A stretch of 64,000 nucleotides of DNA from positions 35,754,233-35,818,232 of the forward strand of contig OZ007571.1 of assembly GCA_963931925.1 (NCBI GenBank). Reading direction: 5' to 3'. A model generated the notes under the pieces. It did no database searches, was not told the DNA's origin, and was given only the letters and a program-made list of their open reading frames with translations. Made by a program: the position numbers and the translations under genes. Below are positions 6,001-61,304 of this stretch, piece by piece. Each line of letters starts with the position of its first letter. The first letter of the stretch is position 1. The stretch is from Onchidella celtica. Its lineage: Eukaryota; Mollusca; Gastropoda; Systellommatophora; Onchidiidae.

Positions 6001-9000
6001 TCAGAAGGCTATAACATTGTAGCACTTAGCTAAATACATCTCATTTTGAATGATCTGCATGATATTGCCATCGATAATTATACATAAAGAGCAAACAATA
6101 CATAAAGAGTGAACAATGAATTCAGATGAATTTTCCCTTTTACTTGCTGTACTCTTTGGCATGATTGTGAATCTGTGCAAAAATAATAAACTTGTTGTTA
6201 ATTTTTCATTTTATCATTGTGGGAAGGAGGGCACAGAGCATGAAGCTTAATTGTATTTGTGGATGAATATTAATTTAAGCAAACATACAGGTATTCAAGT
6301 AAAAACGACTGATAATCGTATATGTATTGTCAATTGCAATATCAATGTCAGGTATCAACCCTAAGACAAGTGCACGCAGAGACAGCTTACGGAGGGACAG
6401 TTTAGGTTTAGGTACAGAGTGGTCACCTCTTGGGAAGGGATCTCCTCTAGGAGCCATCAACCCTAGTAATCGTAAGTTATCATTGTGTACCAATTTTACT
6501 CAGTTAGACAGGGTGTATATGTATGACATGCTTAGTGCACTGTTTAAGCTTGAGAGCTTAAAGCACCTACTTGAGATGATCTAGAATCAAGGCATTCCTG
6601 TTATAAATTGGTTAGGGACAAGGAATTTGCTGACCAAACTAAAGTACAGTCAAGCTTGCAAAACTCAAACACACCTAAGTCGAAATCATGGATCCCACGA
6701 ACAAAGGCCCAGGTTCCGAATTTATTTCTCAATATTCTTTGTACAGTGGACCATCATGTTTAACGACACTGCTAATAACGAGAACTTTGCCTGTAGCGAG
6801 AACATTTTAAATCCCCGTTTTTCCTACTATATAAGCCATATATTAAAATATGGTAGGATCGAGTACCTAGTCTTCTCGGATAAGGACGAAAAAATTCGGA
6901 GGGCCCGTGTGCACGTTGCGCACGTTAAAGATACCTTGGCAGTTGGAAATCGTAAAGAGCAGGCCGAAAGGCCGCTGCCCGGGCAAAATTGAAATTAATA
7001 GATTAAAATTTATACATATCACCACCACCCCCCCCCCCCCCCCCCAGAACAAGAAATAATAAAACAAGTAAAGTGAGGTGTAAATGCCAAGGGCAGCGAA
7101 CCTCCTAAAATAAAGACCTCAAATCCACTTGAATAACGGCAATCGATAATCAGAACACTTGTTATAGCGAGAGAATTAATTCTGAGTGCATACGGCAAAT
7201 TGTGGGAGCGGCCGCAGTACATCGTGTAGCGAGTCAGACATAATATGTACATGTATTGTTCTTTGTCTGTTACTGCACGCCCATCCGTCTAGTCACCTCT
7301 CACTCAGGCCAACAATGCTTTGTTTCCTTACTGACCACGTGTCATGACAGCGCATTACACTACCCCCCTCGCAATCAATAAATTTACATTTGCCCGCCTG
7401 CCCACCCGTCCAATTATGTCTTGCGTAGGCCTAGCAAGCGCTGCCTACTTGCTGACCAGGTGCCGTGACAGCACTGTACACCATCACCCACGCAGTCAGT
7501 AAATTTATGCCCGCCCACCCGTCCAATCAATCATGTCTTGCGTAGGCCTAGCAAGCATTGTCTACTTCCACCATCCACACACACAATATATTTACGCCCG
7601 CCCACCAGTCCAATCATGGGATCTTGCTGATACCAAAGAAGCTTTGTTTTCTTACTGACCGCACACTATGCCACCATCCACGCAACCAAAAAGCGCATTA
7701 CACTACCCCCCTCGCAATCAATAAATTTACATTTGCCCGCCTGCCCACCCGTCCAATTATGTCTTGCGTAGGCCTAGCAAGCGCTGCCTACTTGCTGACC
7801 AGGTGCCGTGACAGCACTGTACACCATCACCCACGCAGTCAGTAAATTTATGCCCGCCCACCCGTCCAATCAATCATGTCTTGCGTAGGCCTAGCAAGCA
7901 TTGTCTACTTCCACCATCCACACACACAATATATTTACGCCCGCCCACCAGTCCAATCATGGGATCTTGCTGATACCAAAGAAGCTTTGTTTTCTTACTG
8001 ACCGCACACTATGCCACCATCCACGCAACCAAAAACAATACCGGTAGTGATTTACGCGGATCATAGACCGTGCATATCACAAGTAGTGACCAGAGAGTGT
8101 ACGTGTCTGACGAAGCTACCTGTACATGGTTGTAGCCTTCATGGCCAGTCCCACAGTTCGCCCCAGTGAGTGATGAGTCATCACTCTGAGCTGGCTGCGC
8201 GTAGTGTGCTGTCACAGCAGAGGTCAATGGGATCGACGGGAGAGAAAGCATACTTATTACTAGGCCTACGCAAGAGATGGCCAGGTGGGGCCACAACTCG
8301 CAAGGCAATCATTACACACAGTCTTTGATCGCAATTGATCGCGGCGTATGCTCTTTGTGTACATCGGGCTTCCTGACCACATGCCTACACTCGTCACAAA
8401 CATGCGACCAATTTATTACTCGTCTGCCTCTAACTTTTGAACCTGTCTCTCTCATAATTTGATCGAAACATGGCTACCGTCAGCACATAAAGACGAAACA
8501 AAACAAACAACAACAACAAAAAAGTACCGAGATCTGCCGTCAGTTTGATAAACAGTAAAGTAGGCCTACGTTGATCGACAGAACATGCCAGCAAGAGAGG
8601 TAACCATTATTTTCATGGTTACCTCCCTTGTTAGCATGTCCTGCACATAGTGGGGGTATTTTAACCCCTTGCCTTGCCTTTTTGACGCTGTCCTGGAATA
8701 GCGAGACCTTTGGTATAACGAGACATTTTTGGTGGAACATGACCTCTCGTTATAACCAAGTTCCACTGTAGTTATTTTACGCGAACCTTGAACTGTGACA
8801 CGGATTCATCGAACCAGTGTTCCTGCTGCGAGTGTGATCCAAGTAGCCAAAAAGTAGAAAAAAAAACAAAAAACGAATGCCAGAAACTGCATTCAGTTAG
8901 CCGTAGCATAGCCTAGTGGTGGCAGGATAGTGCGTATAGTCATTGTCACGCCCCCAACCCCACCCCATGTGCTAGCATAGAATTGTTCACACTTTAATTA

Positions 9001-20544: not shown

Positions 20545-23500
20545 CTACACTCAGACAAAATCAGTGTATAGACATGGTCATGATAACGTGTGAGAAGATT
20601 TGGGCAAAGAATGGCGAAGGCAATAAAATGTTAACAATATCAGAAAATGGCAAGCTAAAGAAACAAAAAAAAACCCACAATACTTGGTACTGCAATCCAG
20701 TTTGAAGTGATGATATTCTCCTCTTACACAGGCTCTTCTTTTGCATCCCTTGTCTTAGAATTACATCCATTCTAAATAAAAATCTGAAATATCAGATCTA
20801 AACCTTCTCAATTTGTCCATTAACTTAGTTTTGAAGTTTCTGATTGTGACCACATACTTAATTGGAATTCTCCATGGAGAAGACATTTGATATCTGCTCC
20901 ACTTGTAAAGTGTTTCATATTTTATATAAACAGGTGTTCACTGTAATGGACTTGTTCTTTAACAAAACTTGTCACATGATCTGTTCCCTCTAAAATCTTA
21001 TAAAGATTCATTTTACTGGCTAAATCCTGTTCCTAGTGTAGCTGTAATTTTCTTTTACAAATAGGCTTTATTTCCTTGCACAAAATCCCTTCACAATAGA
21101 AACAGTAGAGAATGTATAATCCAAAAATGGCTAAAACAAAAATAGCGGTAAACCAAAGGCAACTAGGAGTCCTCAATTTTTTTCCTCTTGAGCTCTGTTA
21201 AAAAACTAGCTCTAAACTAAAGTAACCCAATCGTTATACCAAAAAGAAAACTTGGATTCAGGGGGCAGTCCACTGTGATTTACCATAGCTTGGGTCGAGT
21301 TACTGTACCCTCCCCCTCTCCCCCAAGAAGAGCAGGTTTCATTCTCCCCAGTAGTATAAGCCTAATTGGGAGTGGCAGCACTACAAGGGTAGGGGGAGAG
21401 AGAGGGACGTCTATAACTTTGCTGGTCCGAAATCAGATGACAGCGAAAGTCACATTAGACGCATCGTGAGTGACTTTTCACGTAAAATGTATGACACCAG
21501 AAAGACAATACTAGTGACTGCAGACAGCCTAGTTCTTGGCATTATGTACGGTAAAGGTAATGAGATCAGCAGGACGGCGTTCTGTACTGTCTGTCCACAC
21601 TCATGTCTTTCTATTCTGAGAGTTTGTCCGCATTCGCCCGCAATCCATGCTCCTTGTGTCCACAGGCCTGAACCAACCCTCATTCTCCAGTCAAAAACAC
21701 AGAGCAAACGAGGACGTGTTGAGACTGTTTTGCCTATGCACTTACATATGTCCTCTTTGATAGTGATTTGGGCTGTCTCTCTTGAGACTGGCATTTTTTA
21801 AGCCTCCTGCTAAACCGAAACTCTTTCTAAACTGAAAATAAACCTGTGGTCCCACCGATTTCGGTTTAACTGTACTCTACTGTTTATTGCTAACAGAAGT
21901 GTTTCCTTATGTATGAATGACATACATAGTGAAAAATTGTCAAGATCAGGAATGGCTCACCTTCTCCAGGCTCTAACTTGACGACTTTGTCAGGTGGGGA
22001 CAGACCAGTGCTGAAGATTTTCCTGCATACAATCACATGTCTCAGTGAACATAATGGATAAATTAACATGAACATACTTCTATGCTGCAGAAGAATGTCG
22101 TACTCATCACAAAAATAACAGTGACAGTTTCTGTAGGCCACCTTCTAAAATCCAAATCTCCCCAAAAGATGAAAGGATATTCTGTATACAAAATGTCCTT
22201 ACAAAAAGCAAAATAGCAGCAGAAGAAAAATAAAAACATAGCAGACTAATTTTCCCAGGCACAAACAATTCATTTTCCAAATCCATCATTTCTCCACCAC
22301 CATCTGCTAAAAACAGCTTTCATAAAAAGTAAGGATATTGCTTCTTTTTTTAAATTTTTTTTTAGAATGAATTTTTAACTTACCCAGTCCACTAATTAAG
22401 ACCAACATGCACCAACTGCGGCACCAAAAATATATATTACTGAACCAGTTGATCATAATCAAATGTTCTGATTTGAGGTCTTTATTTTAGGAGGTTCGCT
22501 GCCCTTGGCATTTACACCTCACTTTACTTGTTTTATTATTTCTTGTTCTGGCGGGGGGGGGGGAATGATATGGATAAATTTTTAATCTATTAATTTCAAT
22601 TTTGCCCGGGCAGCGGCCTTTCGGCCTGCTCTTTACGATTTCCAACTGCCAAGGTATCTTTAACGTGCGCAACGTGCACACGGGCCCTCCGAATTTTTTC
22701 GTCCTTATCCGAGAAGACTAGGTACTCGATCCTACCACCCAATAGGACCAGGGACTTGAAAATATGAGAAAAATCCAATTTCCAAGAACTACTCGATCCT
22801 ACCCCCCAATAGGACCAGGGACTTGAAAATATGAGAAAAATCCACTTTCCAACATGCCTGCACTGCCCGGGTTTAGAACCCGGGACCCTTGGCATGAGAG
22901 GCGAGCACCTTGCCTCTAGACCACCTTGGTCTAGAGGCAAATGTTCTCATTGCCATTAATATTCTGCATGTAATAATAAAATGAAAGAATGAAAATATAT
23001 GTAACCTCCCTCCCTTCTACTGTAAGAATTTTAAGCACTCTTCCGTTACCATTCATTAAAATTAAACATCTCAACATACCTCTTACGACCACGCCCTGGT
23101 CGACCCACTTGTCGTGGTTCCATCCCATTTTCCTGTTTCACTTTGGCCAGATTTTTCTCAGCCAGCGGGCAACCAGACAAACAATGGTGGGAGGTGAACT
23201 TGCCCGTCACATGACCTAAGCCATCACAACCAGGAGTGGGACACTTCCTGATAGATCAAATGGGAATAACATTTTGAGACAATGTTTCAGGATTATCTAA
23301 CATACAATATCATGTTTACAAGCCAACATATCACGCAAACACAAATTAGGCGGAAAGAAAAAGTTGTAGGTAAGCTATAATTATAAATATTTCATCAACA
23401 CATCATGCAACTTTACTTGCAATACAATGCTAGTGGGTTATCTCCTTGCCCAGCCACACTCAAAATGTCAGCCACTTATGCCTACCTGACATCAGCAGAG

Positions 23501-26500
23501 TTGTCATATCTGGCCTGATGACCTCCACCTTCTTCTGATCTTGAGGACCCCAGACGATCAGTCAGTGCCGAGTCTTTGCTCATATTTATTTCAGAGTACG
23601 GACAGCCAAAAGCACTGAGAAAAAAAAACAAAAACATTCAAACTGTCATTTAAAAATAGATAAACTTCCGTCTCATAGCTGAACAAAGCGAAAAGGAATA
23701 TAAAACTCTTATTTTGTAACTGAGACAGTAACTCTAGTTAGATGTGCATCAACATTTCAACTTGTCCTTTCACGGGTGTGTGGGTGTGTCAATCACATTG
23801 CACTTGTCTAAGATCAAAGAGTGTTGGTCTCCGTCGGTGTATGACTTTTTGGCTTTTCATTTCAATAAACATTAATATAGGAACAGCCCAATAACTTTTA
23901 CACCAATTTATCATGGTTGTGAATGTAAGACATAATCCATATCCATAACTGACCTGTGATGGCCTGTGTACTTGGCACCTTTGATGTGACCAATGCCCTT
24001 GCAGCCTAGTGTAGGACAGCCCCCAGTATCACCTGACTGTTTTAAACTTTTCTTATCTACAAAATGGAAGGAAACCACTCATCATTCACAATCCTCTAAT
24101 GCACATAGTTAAATATGAAAATAACAAAGTAAAATATTATAAATAGTTGATGTTAACAATTCTCTATGCTGCAACCAAATATCTGTGATTCTATCCACAA
24201 AAGGTTACTGAGTCAAATGCACTCTATGTGTGTCTTCCAGACATTCTGTGAGACAGAAATCATCACCATTCCCTAAGACTGTAGTAATTCAAAAACGCGT
24301 AAAATTAATTGTTATAAATTCAACCACATTCAAAGCCGCATCGAATAGTCTTGGTTATACACTCCTAGCCGAAAACTAACCGAATAGCAAACTTTAAAAA
24401 ATTCATCATAATTAGACCAGCTATGCTAATATAAATCAGTTTTTTGCTTCTCCTGATAAGCAGACCTACTACAGTAATCTCCGTCTAATAACCCGGTTAA
24501 CGGGAGACAGAAAAAGCGGGTTCTTAGGCGGACCGGGTACTTAGGCGGATGCCAAAGGATGCCACCCACGACCACTCGTGTCCATGGCTTTATCCCCCTT
24601 GATTGCTCAGATAGGGGTCGTGACCTCATAATGAAAATTATGCGTTGGACATTTTTTTTTTGCTTTAATTTTTTTTTTTTCGCGAATGGTCAAAGTTACG
24701 ACTTATGTCTAGTAGAATGCTCTTTTCTTACAGTGATGTGTAACGAATGAAATGTTTCAAACTGAACAATCAAGTTGTGAATCACAGATGCCGATTTTAG
24801 ACAACACAAGGCCCAGTGATACCCTGTGTAATAACCATAATCAGCCCTAAATACATGTGCCGTGCAAACCAAGCACGTGGTCAGTTACGTATGAAATTCT
24901 GCCCCTCGAGTCAGACAACAATAGATGTTGGGTAATGACTCGTCTAGGAGTGTCCTGCTTGCACACCAAAGACGTAACTGGGCTCCATCCTTTGTACAGT
25001 TTGCCTCCCCCTACCTTTCCTCCACCCGTTCTCTTTCACTGTACTGTGTGGCTTTGTTCTATCCCGTCTACTTAAAAGAGAATTTTGCGTTTAATATGGA
25101 CATTCTGCGTAAAAGTGTGCTAGTCTCTCAATCAAATGCCGGGTTCTTAGGCGGACTTTTCGTTTCAGAGCGGGCTCTTACGCATGTAAATTACAGTGAA
25201 AAATTCGGTTTCACGGCAACAGCGGGTTCTAGGGCGGCGAGTTCTTAGACGGAGACTACTGTACTACAGTTTTAGGGAACGGTGATGAAATACTAACTCA
25301 TATCCATGATATGAAATGTGCATAGGTATTAAACTGACCTATAGGACTCTGTAAGGGATGGAATGTCTTGTTACACCAGTGTGGAGGGTGGAGATCGGAG
25401 GTATCATCGTCAATCCAGTAATCATAGATGGAATCCCAGCCATCAAAGTGGACCAATAACCGATAGTCCTGCACATCAACAATGGTGGCCACACGAATAA
25501 GGATGGGATTGCGTTTGTCCACGAGCTCAACTTTCATGCCTTTCTCAAATCCCATGGGGGCTCGCTGAAAAAGCAAATGCCTAAATCACATATGGCTGGA
25601 ATCTTCCCACTGCCATCACTTTTCCCCATAAACTTTCACACTAACAACAAATCATGTATTATATGCAGACCCCAAAAGCAAATGGTCTATAAACATTTGA
25701 CTACATTTTTCTTACATTTTTTATACATCACAAATTGCTGTAGACTATTCAAGAAATGAAGAGGTATCAGATGTACTGCTGCGGCAGTTGTTCAGCTCAT
25801 TCCCTTCATAAGCACCCACAATTTGATAGCACAATGGAAGGTTTTAAAGATAATAACAAAAAGTACAATTGTTTTTTGTGGTGTTTTTTTTATCCTGGCG
25901 GTTTCCTTTTTTTAAAATTCAGTCAGTCATTCTGTGACATATTTATTTTATGCACATTTATGATGAAACAGAAATCAGCAAATGGCCAGCTGGACAATTA
26001 TGATGGAAAAAATCAGTTTAAAAAAAATGGACTGGGAAGACTCACAGTTTTGAAGGCTCTCGCAGGCACAGCTGTAGAATGAGTGTCAGCCAAGTACATT
26101 TCCCATGTGAAGTTACCACTATCTCCATAGTCTGCAGATGACAGTCAATAAAATCCAGAAAATGAAACAATTAAAACACTGCATTTTGACCTAGTGCCAT
26201 GCCAATCAGGAATGGGACAAGCTAAAGTCACTGGGAAATCAGCACAGCATAACATGGTCAGTTCTCTTACTGTAAATAACTCGTAAACCTCAGGAAAGAG
26301 CAAACCACCTATACAGTTTCAAAGACAAAATATGGAAAAAAGTAGTGTTTATATTCTCAAAGACTGATACCATCACATCAGACACTTCCAGAAGAAAAGT
26401 CGAACTCCTGGTGACCCAGCTGCAAAATCTGTAAAAATAGTTACCTTTAAGATAACATAAGCTATGATAAGATAAGAATCACTTTACTACCATGAGGGAA

Positions 26501-29500: not shown

Positions 29501-32500
29501 AACTTTATTGCACATTTTTCTCCACTATACCCTTCATAATTGTTTTAACTGAGTCAGATATTTTGCACTGAAAGCAATGTACAAAAAGGTGGCAAAATAT
29601 TCAATTATCTTTACTATGTCAGATATTCTGCAAGGGCAATCCTATGAACAATGACATGCAGAAAGACATGTGACAAAATAAAACTTCAATTATCATGCCA
29701 CATCTACTTTAGTTACTTTATGTTTATTACTTTAGTACTTTAAAGTAGGGGATTGCTGGGTTCGGGCGAAGTACGGGTGACCTTGTGTCACTTAGGCGCT
29801 ACGCTAGCCGTGAAGGCCATCCCGGGTCACCCCGAAACGTCGCTGGCTAACAGGGCTCTGGTGAAATCCTGGCAGCAGGGGATGGATGAGGACGGAAGGC
29901 GACCGAAGGATCTTTGGGCACGGCTTTTGTCTCTCGTGGTTGCGGGCAGAGGATTCCGTTTTTGGAACAATGGCCGGGACCAATGCACAGTATGTGCACT
30001 GCGCTTTCAGAAAGCAATGGCAGACCACTGGAAGAATTTCTTGCCAAAAACTACAATGAAATGTCACACAAAAGGAAAGAAAGTTATAGTTCTGTGTCCT
30101 CTGAGTCCCCCAGGGAGGGTCGGGACTCAAAAACGACTGGGGAGGGAGAATCCACAACTGCAGAAGGCACCCGTGATGACAATACTGGCGTATCTGACGG
30201 TGAGTGCAAGAAACAGAGGTGTAGATACTCCTATTCAAAGAAAAGAAAAAGCAAAAGTGTCATCAACATCGGCACCTGGAATGTTAGGACCATGAAACAA
30301 ATGGGAAAACTTACACTCCTGTTAGAGGAGCTGAAGGAACTCAGCATGAACATCACTGGACTGAGTGAAGTACGATGGGACAAACAGGGCCTATTCAGGA
30401 CAGAAGATCACACCATCGTATACAGCGGAAACAAACGCGGCATGAATGGTGTTGCAATTATACTGGACAGACGCTTACGAGACAACATTAGCAGCCATGA
30501 CGCTATAAGTGATAGAATTGTCACTGTGAAACTTGACACTCAACCCGTCCCCCTGAACATCATACAAGTATACGCCCCCACATCTGCGAGCACAGAAGAA
30601 GAAATAGAGCTGTTCTATAATGACCTACAATCAGTAACAGATAAAATCCCAAGCAGAGAAATATGCATAATCATGGGAGATTTCAATGCCAAAGTGGGAG
30701 AGGGTGAGGATCTGGAATGTGGGATAGGACCCTATGGATTAGGAGAACGAAACGACCGAGGAGACATGTTAGCATCTTTCTGCCATGCAAATGAAATGAG
30801 CATCACGAACACTCTCTTTAAACACCCGATGCGAAGAAGATACACATGGATAAACCCTGGAGGCAATCTCCGAAACCAGATTGATTACATCCTGATTGAC
30901 AAAAACTGGAAAACAACTGTGCTCAACTCAAAGACAAGGCCAGGGGCAGACTGTGACACTGACCACATTTTAGTGACAGCAAAGCTGAGATTGAAAGCCT
31001 ATAGGAAGAGCAAGCCAAAACCCACCACCAGATTTGACACGGACAAACTGAAAGACCCTGAAATCAGCAATGCTTTTCATATCGAAACAGAAAACCGTTT
31101 CTCAGCATTACTCAAGGAGTGGTCAGCTGAAGAAAGACACCCAGATACACTGTGGAAAGACATGAAAAGAATTTGGAGTGAAACAGCTGAATCGAAACTC
31201 GGGAAAAGAACGAGGAAAACTCCCAAACCATACATCAGTGAAGAAGTGATAGAGCTTGCAAAAAGAAAGAGCAAAGCCAGAAAACTTAGTAAACAAGATG
31301 AATATCATGCACTGAAGAAGGAAATCCAAACAAAGATCAGAAGAGACAAGAATGCATGGTTAGAAAGAGAGTGTGCAAACATAACAGAATGTAATACACA
31401 AAGAAAGTCAAAAGAAATGTTTGAACAAATAAGAAAAGTAAAAAAGAGGGATTTCCAACCACAGAACTTGAGTCTGAACAACAAAGAAGGCACAACACTG
31501 ACAAACACAAAAGATGTGCTCTCAAGATGGCACGAATACGGCAAGATGCTGTTTGCGGACAACATCAGACCAGACCCGAGGGACCTCCAACAACCAGACT
31601 CACAACAGATAGATAAAGAACCAGAACCTCTCTTGGAGGAAGTACAGGCTGCAATAAAACAAATAAAGAATGGAAAATCCCCTGGATTAGACAACATACC
31701 AGGTGAACTCCTGAAACATACCAGCGAATCAGGAATAAAAGCACTCCACCAAATGATATGCAAAATTTGGCAGACAAATGAATGGCCAACAGAATGGAAG
31801 CTACAAGAATTCGTCATGCTATACAAAAGCGGCAATGTCAAAGACTGTGGAAATTATAGAACCATCGCCCTCATCAGTCACACCAGCAAAATCCTGCTCA
31901 TCATCATACTCAACAGAATGAAATCTAAGGTAGAAGAGGAACTATCAGAATGTCAAGCTGGTTACAGGACCAACAGAGGAACCGCTGACATGCTCTTCAT
32001 ACTACAAATAATGATTGAACAGATAAGAAGCAATGGAAACGAAGCCTTCATCACGTTCATAGACTACAGCAAAGCGTTCGACAGCGTTAGGCACCATCAC
32101 CTGTTCGATATAATGATTAAGATGGGATTCCCGAAACACCTTGTGACCCTCATCGCTGCACTATACCACGAACAAAAGGCAACGATTAGATGGAACAATG
32201 AGAACTGTCCATATTTCAACATCGAGAAAGGAGTCAGACAGGGTTGCATACTTTCACCTCATCTTTTCAATATTTATACTGAGCAGATCATGAGAAACGC
32301 AGACATAGAAGATATGGGAATAAAGATCGGAGGCCGAAACATCACAAACCTTCGCTACGCTGATGACACAGCTCTTATGTCAGATAACATCACCAGCATG
32401 AAAAGAGTGTTGCACAGAGTGGATGAAGCGGGCAAGACAGCAGGCCTACACCTAAATGCTAAGAAAACCAAAGTCATGCATACTGGAACAGGGCACCATG

Positions 32501-35500
32501 AACACCAGGAGATACTAGTAAACAAAACAGCACTAGAAAAAGTGACTGATTTCAAATACCTAGGATCACATAAATCGCAAGATGGAAGCTGCTCAAAGGA
32601 CATAAAAACAAGGATAGGAATGGCAAAACACAAAATGGTTCAACTAAACAACATTTGGAAGGATAGAGGCACACCAACGGACCTCAAAGTGAATATACTT
32701 AAGTGCTTGATCTGGCCAGTCCTACTATATGGTTGTGAAGCCTGGACACTCAAAAAGGCAGACATAACAAGATTGGAGGCAGCTGAAATGTGGCTTTACA
32801 GAAGGCTACTCAGAATAAGTTGGACAGAAAGGAGAACAGATACAAGCATCTTAGAACAGCTTGGCACCACCAGAAGAATAACACCTGAAATAAATAAAAG
32901 AAGACTTGCATACATCGGCCACGCGGCCCGAAACAAAAGCACGGCCCTTATGATATCAACCCTTCAAGGAAAGACAGAAACAAAGAGAAAACAAGGAAGA
33001 CCACCCATTACATATCACGATAACATCAAGAAAGTCAGCCAGCTGGAAATAAGTGAACTAACTAGGAAAGCTAAGGACAGGATTGGGTGGAGGAGATTTT
33101 GTCGTGACATCCACTGTAGCAGCTAACATCGATGACGATGAAGCCGACAGGTGACAGGTGAGGTGACTTTATGTTTATCCATCATAATACTTGATATCAA
33201 ATGAGAAGTGAAAAAAAGAAAAAATAGATAACATGAAATAAAACTCCACAAAAATGTCAATTCCTTTTCAAACCAAGCCCATGAAGAGTTATAAAATTTA
33301 ATTAAGTCTACAATTGATCTGAATCTGTACACAAGGAACAAAGAGGGTTCAAACCTCAAAAATCTAAATCATCCATTACATCTCACCAAAAAAATCTCCA
33401 CGAAACCAAGGAAATTGGCATGCTATAATAGGTCTAGATATTACCGCATAACAATATCTTACAAACATGTTTGTCATTCAAAAATTTACCTGAATTCCCA
33501 TGTTCATCGCGAGGAACAGATTTCATTTCTCCTGAAATTATCAGCTTTTTCTTCCTGTTCTTCATCCCCATCATCATACGTGACATAATCAGTTGTTTAC
33601 GATGCAGATTTTTCCTAGAGAATAAAAATGACAGTTAAAGGTAAAATAAAGTTTCTGACAAACTGTTTTTTCCTGAAGGTCTAATATTGAAACATGAGAA
33701 ATTTTTGCATATCAATGAAAGATGTGCATGAGTGCTGTCCATAAATACATCAAGACCAATCAACCACTACAGGAAACAGTACATAAAACTCTGAGAGTTA
33801 CAGCAATATAAATTTGCTGATACACTATAAGAAACAAGACCAAATTTTTAAAAATTCTATACAAGCTTCACATGTTCTTTTCATTTGCACTTCTTTCTAT
33901 CAAGTTGATGATTTCTAGAAATACTTTTTTGTCTCTCATGATGGTAACTATGGTATACCAGTTTTCCCACACAAATCTGGTCCAGTGGACAAAACCACTA
34001 AGAATTAATGTTCAATGTCAGAACAAATAAAGTATGAAGACAAAAGGAAAATACCTCAGAGATCAGAACTAATTCTGGCTGGATTCTATATGTTTCAAAC
34101 ACGAGTTCTAATATGCTAGATAGATGGTGGGGAGACTGGGGTGGCTGGACAGGCTTTGAAGATTTCATGAAAAAGGCTGATCAACTCGTATAATATCTGA
34201 AGCACTTAGCCCACATCATTTGTTTCACTTACTTTCCAGCACAGGTCTGAGAACAGAATCTCCCTGATGTTCTGAAATTACTCTTGTAACCATAACGACC
34301 ACAGTAAACACAGCAGCAAATTGGGTCCCCTTCATGGTCTGACAGCTGGGTTGGGTCACTTACTGGCGAACAAAGAAGGAGAACTTAGCAAGGCCTGATT
34401 AAAACACGGAATGTCTCTCTTGGAAACACGTTAGTCATGCATTCAATATTTCTGTGCTTTACTGCATTATCTGTAGAGATAAACCCAAAAATATTGAAGG
34501 GCCACCACATCCCTCATGTCATAGTGCATATTATCAAAACTGATAAAAATTACATATTTTTCCTCAGCATTTCATGAAACAAGGATACTCTTCTTACTAT
34601 TTGTACTTATGCATTAATTTTCTGAACCAAGAGTTTCTCTAGCTACTAGATATGTCAGATATGAAAGGATATTTGTTGTGTCCATGTCACATTGGGCAGC
34701 TAGAGGGCTTGATATGTTCAGTATTGTGGATATACATGTATGTCTTTAAATGTATGGTGCGCATTTAGTAGGATTATATTTCTCTCCAAGTTCTAAATGT
34801 CACTGCTAATATCTAATATCATCGTCATGTCTCTGAAGGAAGACAGCTTTGTTCCAAACAATTCTCATACACACACAAAGAAAATTGAAATCTGACAAAT
34901 GCCTGAATCTGAATGACCTGGGACCTACTGTCCACAAGGTTCTGATGCCAAACCTCCAGACAATACTTTCTTCGTTTACCTAACATTTTTGTTAATTTTA
35001 AAAAATATTCTAAACTAAGTCAGTGTAGCGGAGTGTATTCAAAAATTTTACAGGAGAAAATCCACAACACTGCACATCCATTATTCATTATGAACTGCAG
35101 ATCTCAATATGTTATATGCAACTTTACAAAAGTTAAACAGGTGAGTTTAGCAGTTATGCCATACCTGAACATGCAGCAGTTTCCCTTTGTGAATCATCAT
35201 CATTTGTTTCCGTCTGTTCTTCTGGACTATTGAGGTCAATACTGTCTTCCTCACCTTCAGCAGTAATTCTGCTATTTGAACTTTCATCCTCTACCAACTC
35301 CAAGTCTCCAAATTCATTTATCTTGAACTGAGGACAACATGACCAACATATGATGATAGAAAATGCAGCTCTATTTAATATGCAAAGTACTTTGGCCTTG
35401 GGTAGATTTTGATTTCATTTTGAAATATTCAGTTTTGTTACAAAGTCTAGTACTGTGCAAGAAACTAACATGTCTTCCTTAACAACTCCACATTTCCAGA

Positions 35501-38500
35501 ATGTTAGTGTCTTAATTTGTTCAGTGCTTCACAATTTAAAATGCACTTACCATTTTAAAAACTGACATTATGGTGTCACCTGTCACCTGTCGGCTTCATC
35601 GTCATCGATGTTAGCTGCTACAGTGGATGTCACGACAAAATCTCCTCCACCCAATCCTGTCCTTAGCTTTCCTAGTTAGTTCACTTATTTCCAGCTGGCT
35701 GACTTTCTTGATGTTATCGTGATATGTAATGGGTGGTCTTCCTTGTTTTCTCTTTGTTTCTGTCTTTCCTTGAAGGATTGATATCATAAGGGCCGTGCTT
35801 TTGTTTCGGGCCGCGTGGCCGATGTATGCAAGTCTTCTTTTATTTATTTCAGGTGTTATTCTTCTGGTGGTGCCAAGCTGTTCTAAGATGCTTGTATTTG
35901 TTCTCCTTTCTGTCCAACTTATTCTGAGTAGCCTTCTGTAAAGCCACATTTCAGCTGCCTCCAATCTTGTTATGTCTGCCTTTTTGAGTGTCCAGGCTTC
36001 ACAACCATATAGTAGGACTGGCCAGATCAAGCACTTAAGTATGTTCACTTTGAGGTCCGTTGGTGTGCCTCTATCCTTCCAAATGTTGTTGAGTTGAACC
36101 ATTTTGTGTTTTGCCATTCCTATCCTTGTTTTTATGTCCTTTGAGCAGCTTCCATCTTGCGATTTATGTGATCCTAGGTATTTGAAATCAGTCACTTTTT
36201 CTAGTGCTGTTTTGTTTACTAGTATCTCCTGGTGTTCATGGTGCCCTGTTCCAGTATGCATGACTTTGGTTTTCTTAGCATTTAGGTGTAGGCCTGCTGT
36301 CTTGCCCGCTTCATCCACTCTGTGCAACACTCTTTTCATGCTGGTGATGTTATCTGACATAAGAGCTGTGTCATCAGCGTAGCGAAGGTTTGTGATGTTT
36401 CGGCCTCCGATCTTTATTCCCATATCTTCTATGTCTGCGTTTCTCATGATCTGCTCAGTATAAATATTGAAAAGATGAGGTGAAAGTATGCAACCCTGTC
36501 TGACTCCTTTCTTGATGTTGAAATATGGACAGTTCTCATTGTTCCATCTAATCGTTGCCTTTTGTTCGTGGTATAGTGCAGCGATGAGGGTCACAAGGTG
36601 TTTCGGGAATCCCATCTTAATCATTATATCGAACAGGTGATGGTGCCTAACGCTGTCGAACGCTTTGCTGTAGTCTATGAACGTGATGAAGGCTTCGTTT
36701 CCATTGCTTCTTATCTGTTCAATCATTATTTGTAGTATGAAGAGCATGTCAGCGGTTCCTCTGTTGGTCCTGTAACCAGCTTGACATTCTGATAGTTCCT
36801 CTTCTACCTTAGATTTCATTCTGTTGAGTATGATGATGAGCAGGATTTTGCTGGTGTGACTGATGAGGGTGATGGTTCTATAATTTCCACAGTCTTTGAC
36901 ATTGCCGCTTTTGTATAGCATGACGAATTCTTGTAGCTTCCATTCTGTTGGCCATTCATTTGTCTGCCAAATTTTGCATATCATTTGGTGGAGTGCTTTT
37001 ATTCCTGATTCGCTGGTATGTTTCAGGAGTTCACCTGGTATGTTGTCTAATCCAGGGGATTTTCCATTCTTTATTTGTTTTATTGCAGCCTGTACTTCCT
37101 CCAAGAGAGGTTCTGGTTCTTTATCTATCTGTTGTGAGTCTGGTTGTTGGAGGTCCCTCGGGTCTGGTCTGATGTTGTCCGCAAACAGCATCTTGCCGTA
37201 TTCGTGCCATCTTGAGAGCACATCTTTTGTGTTTGTCAGTGTTGTGCCTTCTTTGTTGTTCAGACTCAAGTTCTGTGGTTGGAAATCCCTCTTTTTTACT
37301 TTTCTTATTTGTTCAAACATTTCTTTTGACTTTCTTTGTGTATTACATTCTGTTATGTTTGCACACTCTCTTTCTAACCATGCATTCTTGTCTCTTCTGA
37401 TCTTTGTTTGGATTTCCTTCTTCAGTGCATGATATTCATCTTGTTTACTAAGTTTTCTGGCTTTGCTCTTTCTTTTTGCAAGCTCTATCACCTCTTCACT
37501 GATGTATGGTTTGGGAGTTTTCCTCGTTCTTTTCCCGAGTTTCGATTCAGCTGTTTCACTCCAAATTCTTTTCATGTCTTTCCACAGTGTATCTGGTTGT
37601 CTTTCTTCAGCTGACCACTCCTTGAGTAATGCTGAGAAACGGTTTTCTGTTTCGATATGAAAAGCATTGCTGATTTCAGGGTCTTTCAGTTTGTCCGTGT
37701 CAAATCTGGTGGTGGGTTTTGGCTTGCTCTTCCTATAGGCTTTCAATCTCAGCTTTGCTGTCACTAAAATGTGGTCAGTGTCACAGTCTGCCCCTGGCCT
37801 TGTCTTTGAGTTGAGCACAGTTGTTTTCCAGTTTTTGTCAATCAGGATGTAATCAATCTGGTTTCGGAGATTGCCTCCAGGGTTTATCCATGTGTATCTT
37901 CTTCGCATCGGGTGTTTAAAGAGAGTGTTCGTGATGCTCATTTCATTTGCATGGCAGAAAGATGCTAACATGTCTCCTCGGTCATTTCGTTCTCCTAATC
38001 CATAGGGTCCTATCCCACATTCCAGATCCTCACCCTCTCCCACTTTGGCATTGAAATCTCCCATGATTATGCATATTTCTCTGCTTGGGATTTTGATTTC
38101 ATTTTGAAATATTCAGTTTTGTTACAAAGTCTAGTACTGTGCAAGAAACTAACATGTCTTCCTTAACAACTCCACATTTCCAGAATGTTAGTGTCTTAAT
38201 TTGTTCAGTGCTTCACAATTTAAAATGCACTTACCATTTTAAAAACTGACATTATGGTGTACCATTAATAAATCAAAATAACAAACTGAAGTAAAATGAT
38301 AGAACAGTTTCTACTGGTGGCATCTGAAACCATTCAAACAAAAGGATAGAAAAGATTCGCAGAATATCAAGAACAATTAAAGAGAGACATATGAACCTTC
38401 ATGTCTGTACCAGGCAAAGTTCCAAGACCATTTGACCATTCCAGTAAATTAGAGTCAATAAATCCTTCAGTAAGTATCATACCCACACCATCGCCTGTGT

Positions 38501-41500
38501 GCTCTTCTTTACTGGACAACTCACCATCTGGCTGACCTATACAGAAATGGTGCAAAAATTGATGGACATAGTGATAAATGGATGAAAAAGTGAAAAATGT
38601 ACAGACTTGTGTAATTTCTTTAATTTTCTTCCATCTTGGAATTTACTGTATGGGCTTTCTCATTGTTTGTTACCAACATGGAATTTTACAGAAAATGGCT
38701 CTTCCCCCAACATTTTAACTTTGTGCCAGGCTCTGCTTTGATCCCATAGGTTTTCTGAATAATTAGTTCAATACTTGAATGAGTAAAGGCAATTGCCACG
38801 GTGAGGCTAGGCTATACAAGTGCTCGAGGAGCAGATGGGTGGACATGCATTTATGATGTCTAATACACTATGCAACTTCATTGAAGACTGAACAAGAAAA
38901 CACTATATTGGAATGGGGGGGGGGGGGGGGGGGAGGGGGGGGGGGGGAAAAGACATGACAAACAAACAGACCTCCATTGGTACATAATGGCCAGTGCTGG
39001 GGTTCAGGTTGAGGAGTGACAGCAGGCACATTTTCAGACACTGCGAGAATGTTCATCTCACTAGATGCAGTTTGTGTGACAACTGGTTCCATCTGAGCAC
39101 TCAGAGTAGCAGTTGCCACTGTGGACACATTGACTGGACTCACTTCGTCAGCTACAATTACTGCACTTGCCGCTGGTACAGACAAATCACTGGCTCTACT
39201 AACTTGAGGCTGACCTGATTCGCAGGCAGTCTGAAAGGAAAGTAATAACAAGCATGGGCATTAAGTCACTTTCATATTGACAAATAAATCCATTCTCACA
39301 TAGGACATTGTAACAGCTGAGGTTGATTTTTGTACGTTATAGTAGGGAGAGTTAGTTGATCTAAACTACTACCCTTTAGAAAGGAAACTATTACAGCTGT
39401 AGTAAAATTAAACACGAGATTTGAACAATTAAATAATACTAGTTTAATTAATAACTATATGATGAATAATAAAATCCTAGGAAGGCACCAGAGAACACCT
39501 AAACAACTGAATATCTTAGCCCACACGGGGAAAAACACAAACGCTGTAGACTCATTTACTCACCGCTACTCACATTTACATGGATCTATTTATATAAAGC
39601 CATAGAAGATGCCAGACTCAACCTAACCTCTGCACTCGCCCGAGACACACAAACTGACCAATCACGTACCAATACGTCACCAGGTTACATCACTCAAGGC
39701 CAAACCTGGCGTAAGCATCTATATCTACCATGTTATCGAATATTCAGGAATGTCCTAATATTGACGAAACAGGTGAAATCACTCAACAACAAGGAAAAAC
39801 TACTCACAAGAAAGGGAATTTCAGGTTGCCGAGTGCAAACACCGCGTACAACAACAAAAGGAAAAAGGAGAAGTGAATACTCGCTCAGTCACCAGTATGA
39901 CAAGCAAAAACAAAAAAAAAGGGGGGGGGGGGGGAGGGAGGAGGGAAAGAAGGGGTAGCCTGCAGATGCTACAGACATATAACATCAAAGAGGTTGAAAC
40001 AGAAGAGACTCGCCTCTCATGCCAAAGGTACTGGGTTCGAACCCCCATCAGTGCAGGCATGTTGGAATTTTATGTGTATGTGGGGGGAAAAGAGAATTCC
40101 TGTCCCTGATCCGATGGTAGGTAAGATCAAGCACCTAGTCTTCTCAGATAAGAAAGATACCATGGCACTATGGCAGTTGAAAGACGAGAAGAGCAGGCTC
40201 AACAAGGCCGCCGCTGTCTGGCAAAATTCTAAAAAACTAATACCTACCACAAAACCCACAGAAACAAGAACAAAAAGAAAAAAGTGAAGTATAAATGTCA
40301 AGGGCAGTGAAACTCCTAAAATAAATACCAAAACACAAACAGATGAGACTCACTTCTTGCATATAAGAAAAGGTACTTGATTTCATGATGACCACAAGAA
40401 ACTTTTAAATGACCAGTTCTTTTTCTTACCTCATCAGTGACCCCTGCCCGTGTTGATGTGCATCTAGGCTGTGTTAAAATGGAAATATTGGAAACGATTG
40501 TGCTGATGGTGGAAGTGATAGCGGAGGTGGCAACAGTGGAGACATTCCGGTCTTCTTCTACACTTGTGCTCATGCTAGTGGGTGTTCCAGTCTGACCAGG
40601 AGATGTTGCAGAACTGACTACTGCCACAGGAGTTGCTGAGGCTGCTGTTGTTATGGTAGCAGTAGTGATGCTGCTTTGATTTACTTTTGTACTCTCAGCT
40701 GAGGCAGGGCTGCTATTAATGGTTAGACTTGCTTGCCTCTGGCTGGTGTCCTTCACAAGCTAAAACAGATAAAAATTGCAACTTGATGTATATGTATCTT
40801 TCCTGACATAAACTAGTCGCTTGTACATCAGTATATTTGTCACTTGGCTTCTACTTCATATAACAGTACCCAAGCTTTTACTGCTATCATATCTACCAGC
40901 TCTTCACAATACTGTATATCTGTTGCAATCTTTTTTTCCACATTGACTATCTCTGTCATTAACTACAGCAACAATCAAATTTAATATATACAGAAACTAC
41001 TGTACATCAATATGTAACTGATGAGTAAAAAAAAACTTGAAACTGCTTTAGGTTGGTAAGCTTGGATCTATTCTGCAAATAATATCTGTGTGCAAAGATA
41101 CCTGTTTCGGGGAAATCGTGGCCATTTGTCGCATCAGACAATGGGAGGTGGACAAATACAACTAACCAACTAATGGTAGCATTAACAACAGAAAATGTCC
41201 ACACACTTGTGTAAGTCCCATCTACTACCTCAAATTAAAATAAAATGTATAATTCTCAACTATTAAAATGAAGTTAGACTACCCAAATGGAACTAATGTT
41301 TCTGGTTTTGATCGCTGTTCCGTCTGGCTACGTCACTTAAAATTTCTGATCTTTACACTGAGCTGTGGCTTTAGCATCTTCCACAAACATGTCAGTGATT
41401 ACCAAATCAAACATCCAATTACCTGTGTTGTCACTTCTTGAGGTGAGCTGGAGACAGTCATCAAAGTGGAGACTGACTGGGCTAGGGTTGTAACAGCAGA

Positions 41501-44500
41501 CTGACTACTGTTGGAGGTCACAAGAGGTGTAGTGAACCCGCTCGCTGAGGACGGCTTGTTGGGGGCAGTGACTGGAACTGACCCATTGTCTTTAATAGAT
41601 GAATTGGTGGTGACAGTGTTACCAATAGTAACTGAAGACATCTGGAACAAAAGATCAAACAATTTTCTGGATTTTAGGCCTGCTTCATATCAGATTCAAA
41701 CAATATCCAAACTGGTAACTCTTCTACTTCAACCTAAAGTATTTTGTTACATTCCTGGGCCTTTTCAAAATTACTGACACAAACAAAGGGTCATTTCAAT
41801 GCAAACACATGAATCAGCAAAGGCAACATAACTCAGGGAACAAAAGATAAAGTTACAGTAACAATATGAAATACAAAGACAAACAACAGATAAAATGAAG
41901 AAATTAAACATCATCCAATTACCTGATAAGAACAATATTTTCATCAGATATAAACTATTTGATTTGGAAACAAATAAGCCTTACACTGTTAAAGACAATC
42001 AGCTGTTCAGTTGAGACTTGAAGTTCACAGATTAAAGTTCTGCTTAACTTCAAGTATAACAGAAGCTGGCAATAGTCTCCGCCTAAGAACCCCGTCAACG
42101 GGAGACAGAAAAAGCTTACCCCCCTTGATTACTCGGACCTGGGTCGTGACCTCATAATGAAAATTAAGCGTTGAACATTTAAAAAAATTTTTTTTTTTTT
42201 TGCGAATGGTCAAAGTTATGACTTATAGCTAGCAGAATGCTCTTTTCTTACAGTGATGATTGGGTAATGAATGGAATGATTCAGACTGAACAATGAAGTT
42301 GTGAATCACAGATGCCGATTTTAGACAACACCAGGCCCAGTGATACCCTGTGTTATAACCACAATCAGCCCTAAGTACACGTGCCGTGCAAACCAAGCAC
42401 GTGGTCAATTACATATAAAATTCTGCCCCTCGAGTTACACAACAATAGATGTTAGGTAATGGCTATGCTAATTTAGTCTAGGAGTGGTCTGCATGCACAC
42501 GAAAGACATAACTGGGCTCCACCCTTTGTGCGGTTCGCCTCCCCCTATCTTCCCTCCACCCGCTCTTTTTCACTGTACTATGTGGCTTTGTTCTATCCCA
42601 TCTACTTGAAAGAGATTTTACGGTATTATGTAAAAGTGTGCTCGTCTCTCGGTCAAAGGCCGGGTTCTTAGGCGGATTATTCGTTTTAGAGCGGGTTCTT
42701 ACGCATGTAAATTACAGTGAAAAAATTCAGTTTCGTGGCAACAGCGGGTTCTAAGGCGGATCGGGTTCTAAGGCGGCGAGTTCTTAGATGGAGACTACTG
42801 TATATCTAAACAATATGAGCAACAAATTGTTAATTATTTAAAACTCTTCAGCCCATTTGGCAACACAAGATATACTGTTTAGGACAATGTCATTCGACAT
42901 CATAAAACAATGTTAGTAGTCACTATTTTTCAAACTTAAAGGACACAAATGTTAGCTTCAAATTAATAGCATATTCCTGCACTTATCCTATGGAGTCTCA
43001 GTTCATGTTACATATTATTTCCAACGCGTAACAAAACCTAGCAGCTTTGGAATTTTTTACCAACACTAACAATATACAGCCTAAACTAGCAGGATGTCCA
43101 AAATGTTTGTTTTGAAATCAGTCAAATCAAATGTACCAATCGCTAATCACTCCACTGCAGACTAAACAATGAGGTAATATTCATTATCACAAAACCTAAA
43201 ATGTAAATTGTCAGCATCAGGGACTAAAGGAGCACCTAGCCATACACTAATATGCTCTCAACGTGTGTACCACAGACTATGTAAAGGCAAAAGCCACCTC
43301 ATTTTAAAATTTTGTCACCATAATTGAATGTAACAAAAATGTTCCACTTCCATATATAAAGGTAAAACAAGAAAACAAAATACTTCTTTTTTTTTTAATC
43401 CTCGCCTGAAAACTTCTGAAAAAACGCTTGCTGTTTTTAAACTTGCAACAGGATATTCAATATTAGTTAGTTGCACCCCAATTCAAGTATCATAATCCAG
43501 CCACTTCAGCACTGACCTGCCTGGACACAACATATTTTCATTTCATACTGCTGCCACATCTTTATCATTGCATAATAGCTACTAACAGGTAGTCAAACCA
43601 AAAAATGTCACTTTATCATGCTGCCACAAAACAATGTCTGAAACAACTGCTGTTAAAATGTTCACATTATACAACCCCCAAGATTTAGTATTAAAAATTT
43701 TTTTTAATAAAATGAAACAGACTTTTTTCAAAATAAACAATTATTAACTAACTCTCATCCAAATAAAGTTAATACAGATCACCATCAAGTTTCTCATACA
43801 TTAACCAGCTTTTCATTTTCACATCGGATGAGCAAACTTCCACCATGACCTCTTCAACACAAAATGTTTTCTCCTTAAATTTCCAATGGATGATAGTGAT
43901 GGCAACTTACCACAGCATGAGCTTTGATGACAGGAGTGACAAGTTGAGGGACCTGTACACTAACCTGACCTCCACAGTTGGCTGAAGGAGACACCACTGG
44001 CTTCTGAACTAATCGCGGGATGGCAGTTGTCTGTAAGACTTGCTGACGACCTGTTAAAGCAAGGGCAGCCCGAGGAAAGACAACTGGTATGCCTGCACGA
44101 ATTACCTGACCTTGGCTAAGACTTGGGCCTGACCAGAGCACCTGTGGAACGTGTTGATTAGGAGTCTGAGGTGTAGCTTGGTTTGATGATGTGGAAGCTA
44201 AAGTCTGAAGTGCAGAAGGGCCTGGAGAAATGGAAGTGACAGTCAGAGTAATTCCAGTGGGAGGTGGGCCAGAGATGAAATTTGCCACTGAAGGCCGAGG
44301 CTGGATAGTAATAGGTTGTCCTGGAACAATGGTGGCATTGCTAATATGAGATGGAGAACCTACAATGGTAGCAGTGCCCACAGGAGATGCTGTTTGTAAT
44401 GTTGTTCCAGCAGTTTGTGTAGACTGTAGTTGTCCCACTGTTGTTACTGAGCCCTGTGCCAATTGAGAGGCCAAGGCAGCATTGGGCAGACACTGGATTA

Positions 44501-49600: not shown

Positions 49601-61304
<11,704 letters not shown>

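Follow-up and report, generated by a model that had tools for sequence, protein, structure and literature searches.

A 172-bp direct repeat around a 5'-truncated RTE-like LINE copy in Onchidella celtica: very probably a long target site duplication from staggered TPRT

Introduction

The second half of LINE integration has been called very poorly understood (PMC6895275). Long target site duplications (TSDs) are described for L1 elements in human cells. In HeLa cells, duplications longer than 100 bp reportedly never exceed 10% of the recovered events, while they make up 4/7, 21/23 and 22/28 of the events in XPA-, XPC- and XPD-deficient lines, respectively (47/58 taken together), and 3/9 in XPD-complemented cells (PMC5223499). 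A distant, unrelated second nick is what the authors of that study speculate to lie behind the long L1 duplications (PMC5223499). According to a HeLa assay recounted in PMC2912911, 5'-truncated L1 inserts often come with radical changes of the target, including extremely long duplications; the genomic survey of the same paper, confined to duplications of 5-30 bp, reports more short duplications among 5'-truncated copies. For zebrafish ZfL2-2 in wild-type DT40 cells, 24 out of 25 insertions showed short changes (≤20 bp) and one showed a 1228-bp duplication (PMC2666801). The rotifer element R9 has a 126-bp duplication, as cited in PMC6895275, and R9 elements generate a long duplication as a rule, judging by the title of a reference in PMC2861651. 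Within the RTE clade, the duplications of schistosome SR3 and Helicoverpa HzRTE-1 measure 7-12 bp (PMC1291365, PMC1852546), with 10 and 7 bp for the HzRTE-1 copies (PMC1852546). A reptile survey of Bov-B accepted duplications of 10-49 bp only (PMC13295347) and would therefore miss a 172-bp case. Among the titles and abstract openings covered, none reports a long duplication in the RTE clade; we make no claim that such a duplication is unreported.

Here we describe a LINE copy between two 172-bp repeats in the genome of the gastropod Onchidella celtica. A first-pass annotation of this locus had considered the length of the duplication exceptional. Duplications of 5-30 bp are indeed usual, but the literature documents LINE duplications that range from 100 bp up to several kb, so that its rarity was overstated.

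The direct repeat and its insert

The window, i.e., the whole stretch of DNA that was analyzed, comprises 64,000 nucleotides (assembly GCA_963931925.1, contig OZ007571.1, positions 35,754,233 to 35,818,232 of the forward strand); all coordinates below are window positions. The truncated copy and its surroundings have the following features.

35405..35576, minus strand: probable TSD copy on the 3' side of the element, 172 bp (172/172 identical to 38089-38260)
35577..38088, minus strand: 5'-truncated APE-RT LINE, 2512 bp (9 mismatches/2512 versus 30649-33160; RVT_1 E 2.9e-38)
35577..35591, minus strand: 3' tail GACAGGTGACAGGTG, putative start of reverse transcription (same tail in the longer copy at 33146-33160)
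38089..38260, minus strand: probable TSD copy on the 5' side of the element, 172 bp (repeat finder and BLAST)
38089..38094, minus strand: 6-bp microhomology AAAATC (shared by the end of the duplication and the bases of the longer copy that directly precede the truncation)
38256..38273, minus strand: putative nick site on the first strand, ATTTATTAATGGT/ACACC when read in the sense of the element, the slash marking the nick (T/A, TTT at -10 to -12; Bov-B signature of PMC13295347)

As the first-pass annotation had stated, the same 172 bases flank the truncated copy without a difference: both the repeat finder and BLAST align 35405-35576 with 38089-38260 at 172/172 positions, far more than chance would give (E 1.7e-87 in the window), with a start-to-start spacing of 2684, and the repeats directly abut the insert on both sides. 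Nine perfect direct repeats of at least 20 bp have their two copies within 10 kb of each other (20-mers made up of only one or two different letters had been filtered out). The 172-bp repeat is the sole distant pair, the other eight being tandem or 3-460 bp apart. On one side of the duplication 6 bp, and on the other 1 bp, could also be element sequence, so that the stagger amounts to 165-172 bp. The earlier wording of two first-strand nicks is in error, as target-primed reverse transcription (TPRT) involves one first-strand and one second-strand nick.

One may ask whether the 172 bp represent an earlier tandem duplication with the element inserted at its junction. Such repeats do exist in the window, e.g., a perfect 344-bp tandem duplication at 7349-8035. 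Nonetheless, this origin demands a blunt insertion, without a duplication of its own, precisely at the junction, and the site would then read AAAATC/ACACC, which has neither T/A nor a preceding T run, while the outer boundary of the repeat has both. We consider it extremely unlikely.

The 344-bp duplication (spacing 343) overlaps an array whose period is about 117 bp and is either a recent expansion or an assembly feature. Other repeats in the window comprise two direct copies of a repeat of about 700 bp (24590-25263 and 42116-42802; 83% identical, carrying short repeats of the GGGTTCTAAGGCGG type toward one end) and an inverted pair of a repeat of about 270 bp (6851-7125 and 22470-22737; 95% identical, with a poly-C/poly-G run inside). 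By eye, at 35163-38560, the truncated LINE appears to lie inside an intron of a minus-strand host gene, gene and LINE having the same orientation, with candidate exons near 35165-35330 and 38400-38555. Two plus-strand frames at 54601-61301 show a PCMT-like match (E 0.027, below Pfam's cut-off) and a SOCS box (E 8.6e-8), and may belong to one PCMTD-type host gene.

The longer copy and the element class

A second, longer copy is present nearby.

29715..29727, plus strand: 13-bp TSD of the longer copy, 5' side, ACTTTATGTTTAT
29728..33165, plus strand: longer, putatively full-length LINE copy, 3438 bp (open frame 29890-33126; includes 20 AT-rich nt before GGGGATTG)
33166..33178, plus strand: 13-bp TSD of the longer copy, 3' side, ACTTTATGTTTAT

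The 13-bp duplication previously attributed to this copy was recovered at both ends. Its stop codon ends at 33126, 39 nt ahead of the element end at 33165. Between the 5' duplication and GGGGATTG, the 20 AT-rich nt at 29728-29747 (TACTTTAGTACTTTAAAGTA) are similar to the flank (TTACTTTATG), which may have served as the template for them as extra nucleotides, a feature of 5' junctions described for ZfL2-2 (PMC2666801, PMC4245944). An HDV-like ribozyme at the 5' end was considered and rejected: a search of 29650-29950 returned no such Rfam family even at E 10, only three weak unrelated matches. Compared with shuffled sequences, 29748-29862 has no better fold (z 0.43), by a program that cannot show the pseudoknots of an HDV-like ribozyme.

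The longer copy encodes Exo_endo_phos (3.5e-13) and RVT_1 (3.4e-38) domains in one frame, and its protein matches LINE-1 ORF2p structures in the PDB (E 3.4e-34, query residues 68-873). Self-comparison and the junctions reveal no terminal repeats within the element, while 5' truncation and target site duplications are present. The element is an APE-type non-LTR retrotransposon (LINE). Its anatomy, with 3438 bp, one main ORF, a very short 3' end and a GGTGACA-type short-repeat tail, is RTE-like: the RTE clade is marked by a size of about 3.2-3.4 kb, one main ORF and a very short 3' end composed of short tandem repeats. The assignment to this clade is putative and based on anatomy. Schistosome SR3 is likewise about 3.2 kb long and has EN and RT (PMC1291365), and HzRTE-1 shares the very short 3' region of short repeats (PMC1852546). 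The window contains no family copies beyond these two, and an Rfam scan of the whole window gave 0 matches at the gathering threshold. Protein relatives in viral, bacterial and archaeal contigs were not found either, with none encoded among 46 pattern matches (one collection) and no pattern match (viral), a result that is uninformative on animals.

The truncated copy aligns to the opposite strand of 30649-33160 over 2512 bp with nine substitutions and zero gaps and, relative to the longer copy, is missing 921 bp at its 5' end. It begins within the endonuclease domain (the match covers positions 146-225 of a 225-position profile and falls marginally below Pfam's cut-off), and its reading frame is open across 35611-38088, reverse transcriptase included. 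Four of the nine differences are synonymous and five non-synonymous, corresponding to a dS of about 0.8% and a dN of about 0.25% by a rough count. As the self-comparison of the window (E up to 1e-10) aligns the element alone, the two copies represent separate insertions rather than a duplicated block.

The arrangement of the copies, which are inverted, 99.6% identical and 2227 bp apart (counted between their duplications), would also suit template switching in replication. In that case, part of the longer copy, 2.2 kb away, would have been copied by a replication fork in inverted orientation. The fork would then have returned to a point 172 bp upstream and left an inverted insert between direct repeats, in an MMBIR/FoSTeS-like process. 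The divergence is compatible with it, as zero changes in 172 bp are expected 54% of the time at a rate of 9/2512, and so is the 6-bp microhomology at one junction. Other features are not predicted by this reading. The insert starts no more than 5 bp from the 3' end of the element itself, which has a probability of about 0.3% for a random breakpoint, the homology at that junction is just 1 bp, and neither the T/A nor the T run at the outer boundary is foreseen. Template switching is thus very unlikely here.

Junctions and insertion site

Read in the sense of the element, the sequence at the outer boundary is TTTATTAATGGT/ACACC. In Bov-B, a member of the RTE clade, a T stretch about 10 nt upstream of a T/A nick is reported as an insertion signature, whereas duplications of plant RTE relatives begin with T instead (PMC13295347). 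Across both available copies of the present family (n = 2), T/A occurs in both, but TTT is located at -10 to -12 in the truncated copy and at -5 to -7 in the longer one. In the rest of the window, T/A with TTT within -9 to -12 is found at 551 out of 115,318 positions on both strands (0.48%); the looser window of TTT at -5 to -13, which fits the longer copy, gives 1,540 (1.3%). The A of ACACC at the 3' junction is assignable to the tail as well, and the T/A reading counts it to the duplication. The longer copy continues for 5 nt (AGGTG) past the GACAGGTGACAGGTG tail before its own duplication starts.

At the 5' junction, a shared run of at least 6 bases such as AAAATC arises at random junctions in 0.19% of 200,000 draws (plus-strand background only). 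Microhomology is described as common at 5' junctions of 5'-truncated LINE inserts (PMC4245944). The tail, the T/A site and AAAATC are what TPRT with an annealing-type join at the 5' end would leave behind.

These junctions also bear on a possible assembly artefact, in which the second flank copy was duplicated on joining haplotypes or contigs around the element. A near-identical sister copy 2.2 kb away can hamper assembly. Yet, the window contains zero N bases, and repeat ends that coincide with the motif of an insertion site, a 3' tail and a junction with microhomology are not what a misjoin is expected to produce. This explanation has a next to negligible probability.

Age of the insertion

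With 0/172 differences, the divergence between the duplication copies is bounded below 1.7% (95%). The insertion is likely recent on this sequence comparison, in line with the first-pass annotation, but its stronger dating as very recent is unproven with such a bound.

Proposed mechanism

The tail, the T/A site and the 5' microhomology support a true long TSD formed by widely staggered TPRT. Ordinary TPRT by an RTE-like, APE-type non-LTR element, in which some 165-172 bp separated the nicks of the two strands, is very probably the origin of the locus. The endonuclease of the element would nick one strand at GGT/ACACC, and the freed 3' end would prime cDNA synthesis on the GGTGACA-type RNA tail. 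Synthesis would halt after about 2.5 kb. The other strand would be broken about 170 bp downstream, possibly by an unrelated nick or repair gap rather than by an element cut. The 3' end of the second strand could then anneal to the unfinished cDNA via AAAATC, and gap filling would leave the 172-bp stretch on both sides. In this model, the duplication, the common tail, the T/A site and the microhomology are directly seen; what the model supplies is the succession of steps and the origin of the second nick.

Some observations count against this TPRT reading. A stagger of 172 bp differs from the 13-bp duplication of the sister copy, and, of the two family copies in the window, the longer one agrees only loosely with the T run of the signature. 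Moreover, 5'-truncated L1 copies of human and chimpanzee lean to short duplications compared to full-length ones, in a survey limited to 5-30 bp (PMC2912911).

Comparison with known systems and implications

The long TSD is a rare but known outcome, which has been seen together with 5' truncation before. L1 in human cells deficient in nucleotide excision repair (NER) produces similar structures, with inserts of 1.9-4.3 kb in the table rows covered and duplications from a few bp to several kb, but those arose in human, mostly repair-deficient cultured cells, whereas here an RTE-like element resides in an animal genome (PMC5223499). The 1228-bp case of ZfL2-2 is alike in being a rare long duplication (1/25), in a wild-type chicken cell, and unlike in that it concerns an L2-clade element in cell culture (PMC2666801). 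Rotifer R9 offers a LINE duplication longer than 100 bp in an animal genome (PMC6895275). It is, however, rDNA-specific, with the long duplication as a rule by title (PMC2861651), while the sister copy at our locus has 13 bp. A long duplication is therefore not a fixed trait of the present LINE family. SR3 and HzRTE-1, close in anatomy, differ in their short duplications (PMC1291365, PMC1852546).

It is doubtful that this RTE-like family, or host flap or nick repair (e.g., NER), regularly yields duplications longer than 100 bp at 5'-truncated copies. If true, the L1 phenotype of NER-deficient cells would have a natural counterpart in the germline. Many such copies, if found genome-wide, would bear on what sets the second nick, to which a single case adds little. 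As a clean natural case that is probably recent, the 172-bp duplication itself exemplifies a second-strand break at a long distance from the first nick, with a 13-bp sister copy nearby.
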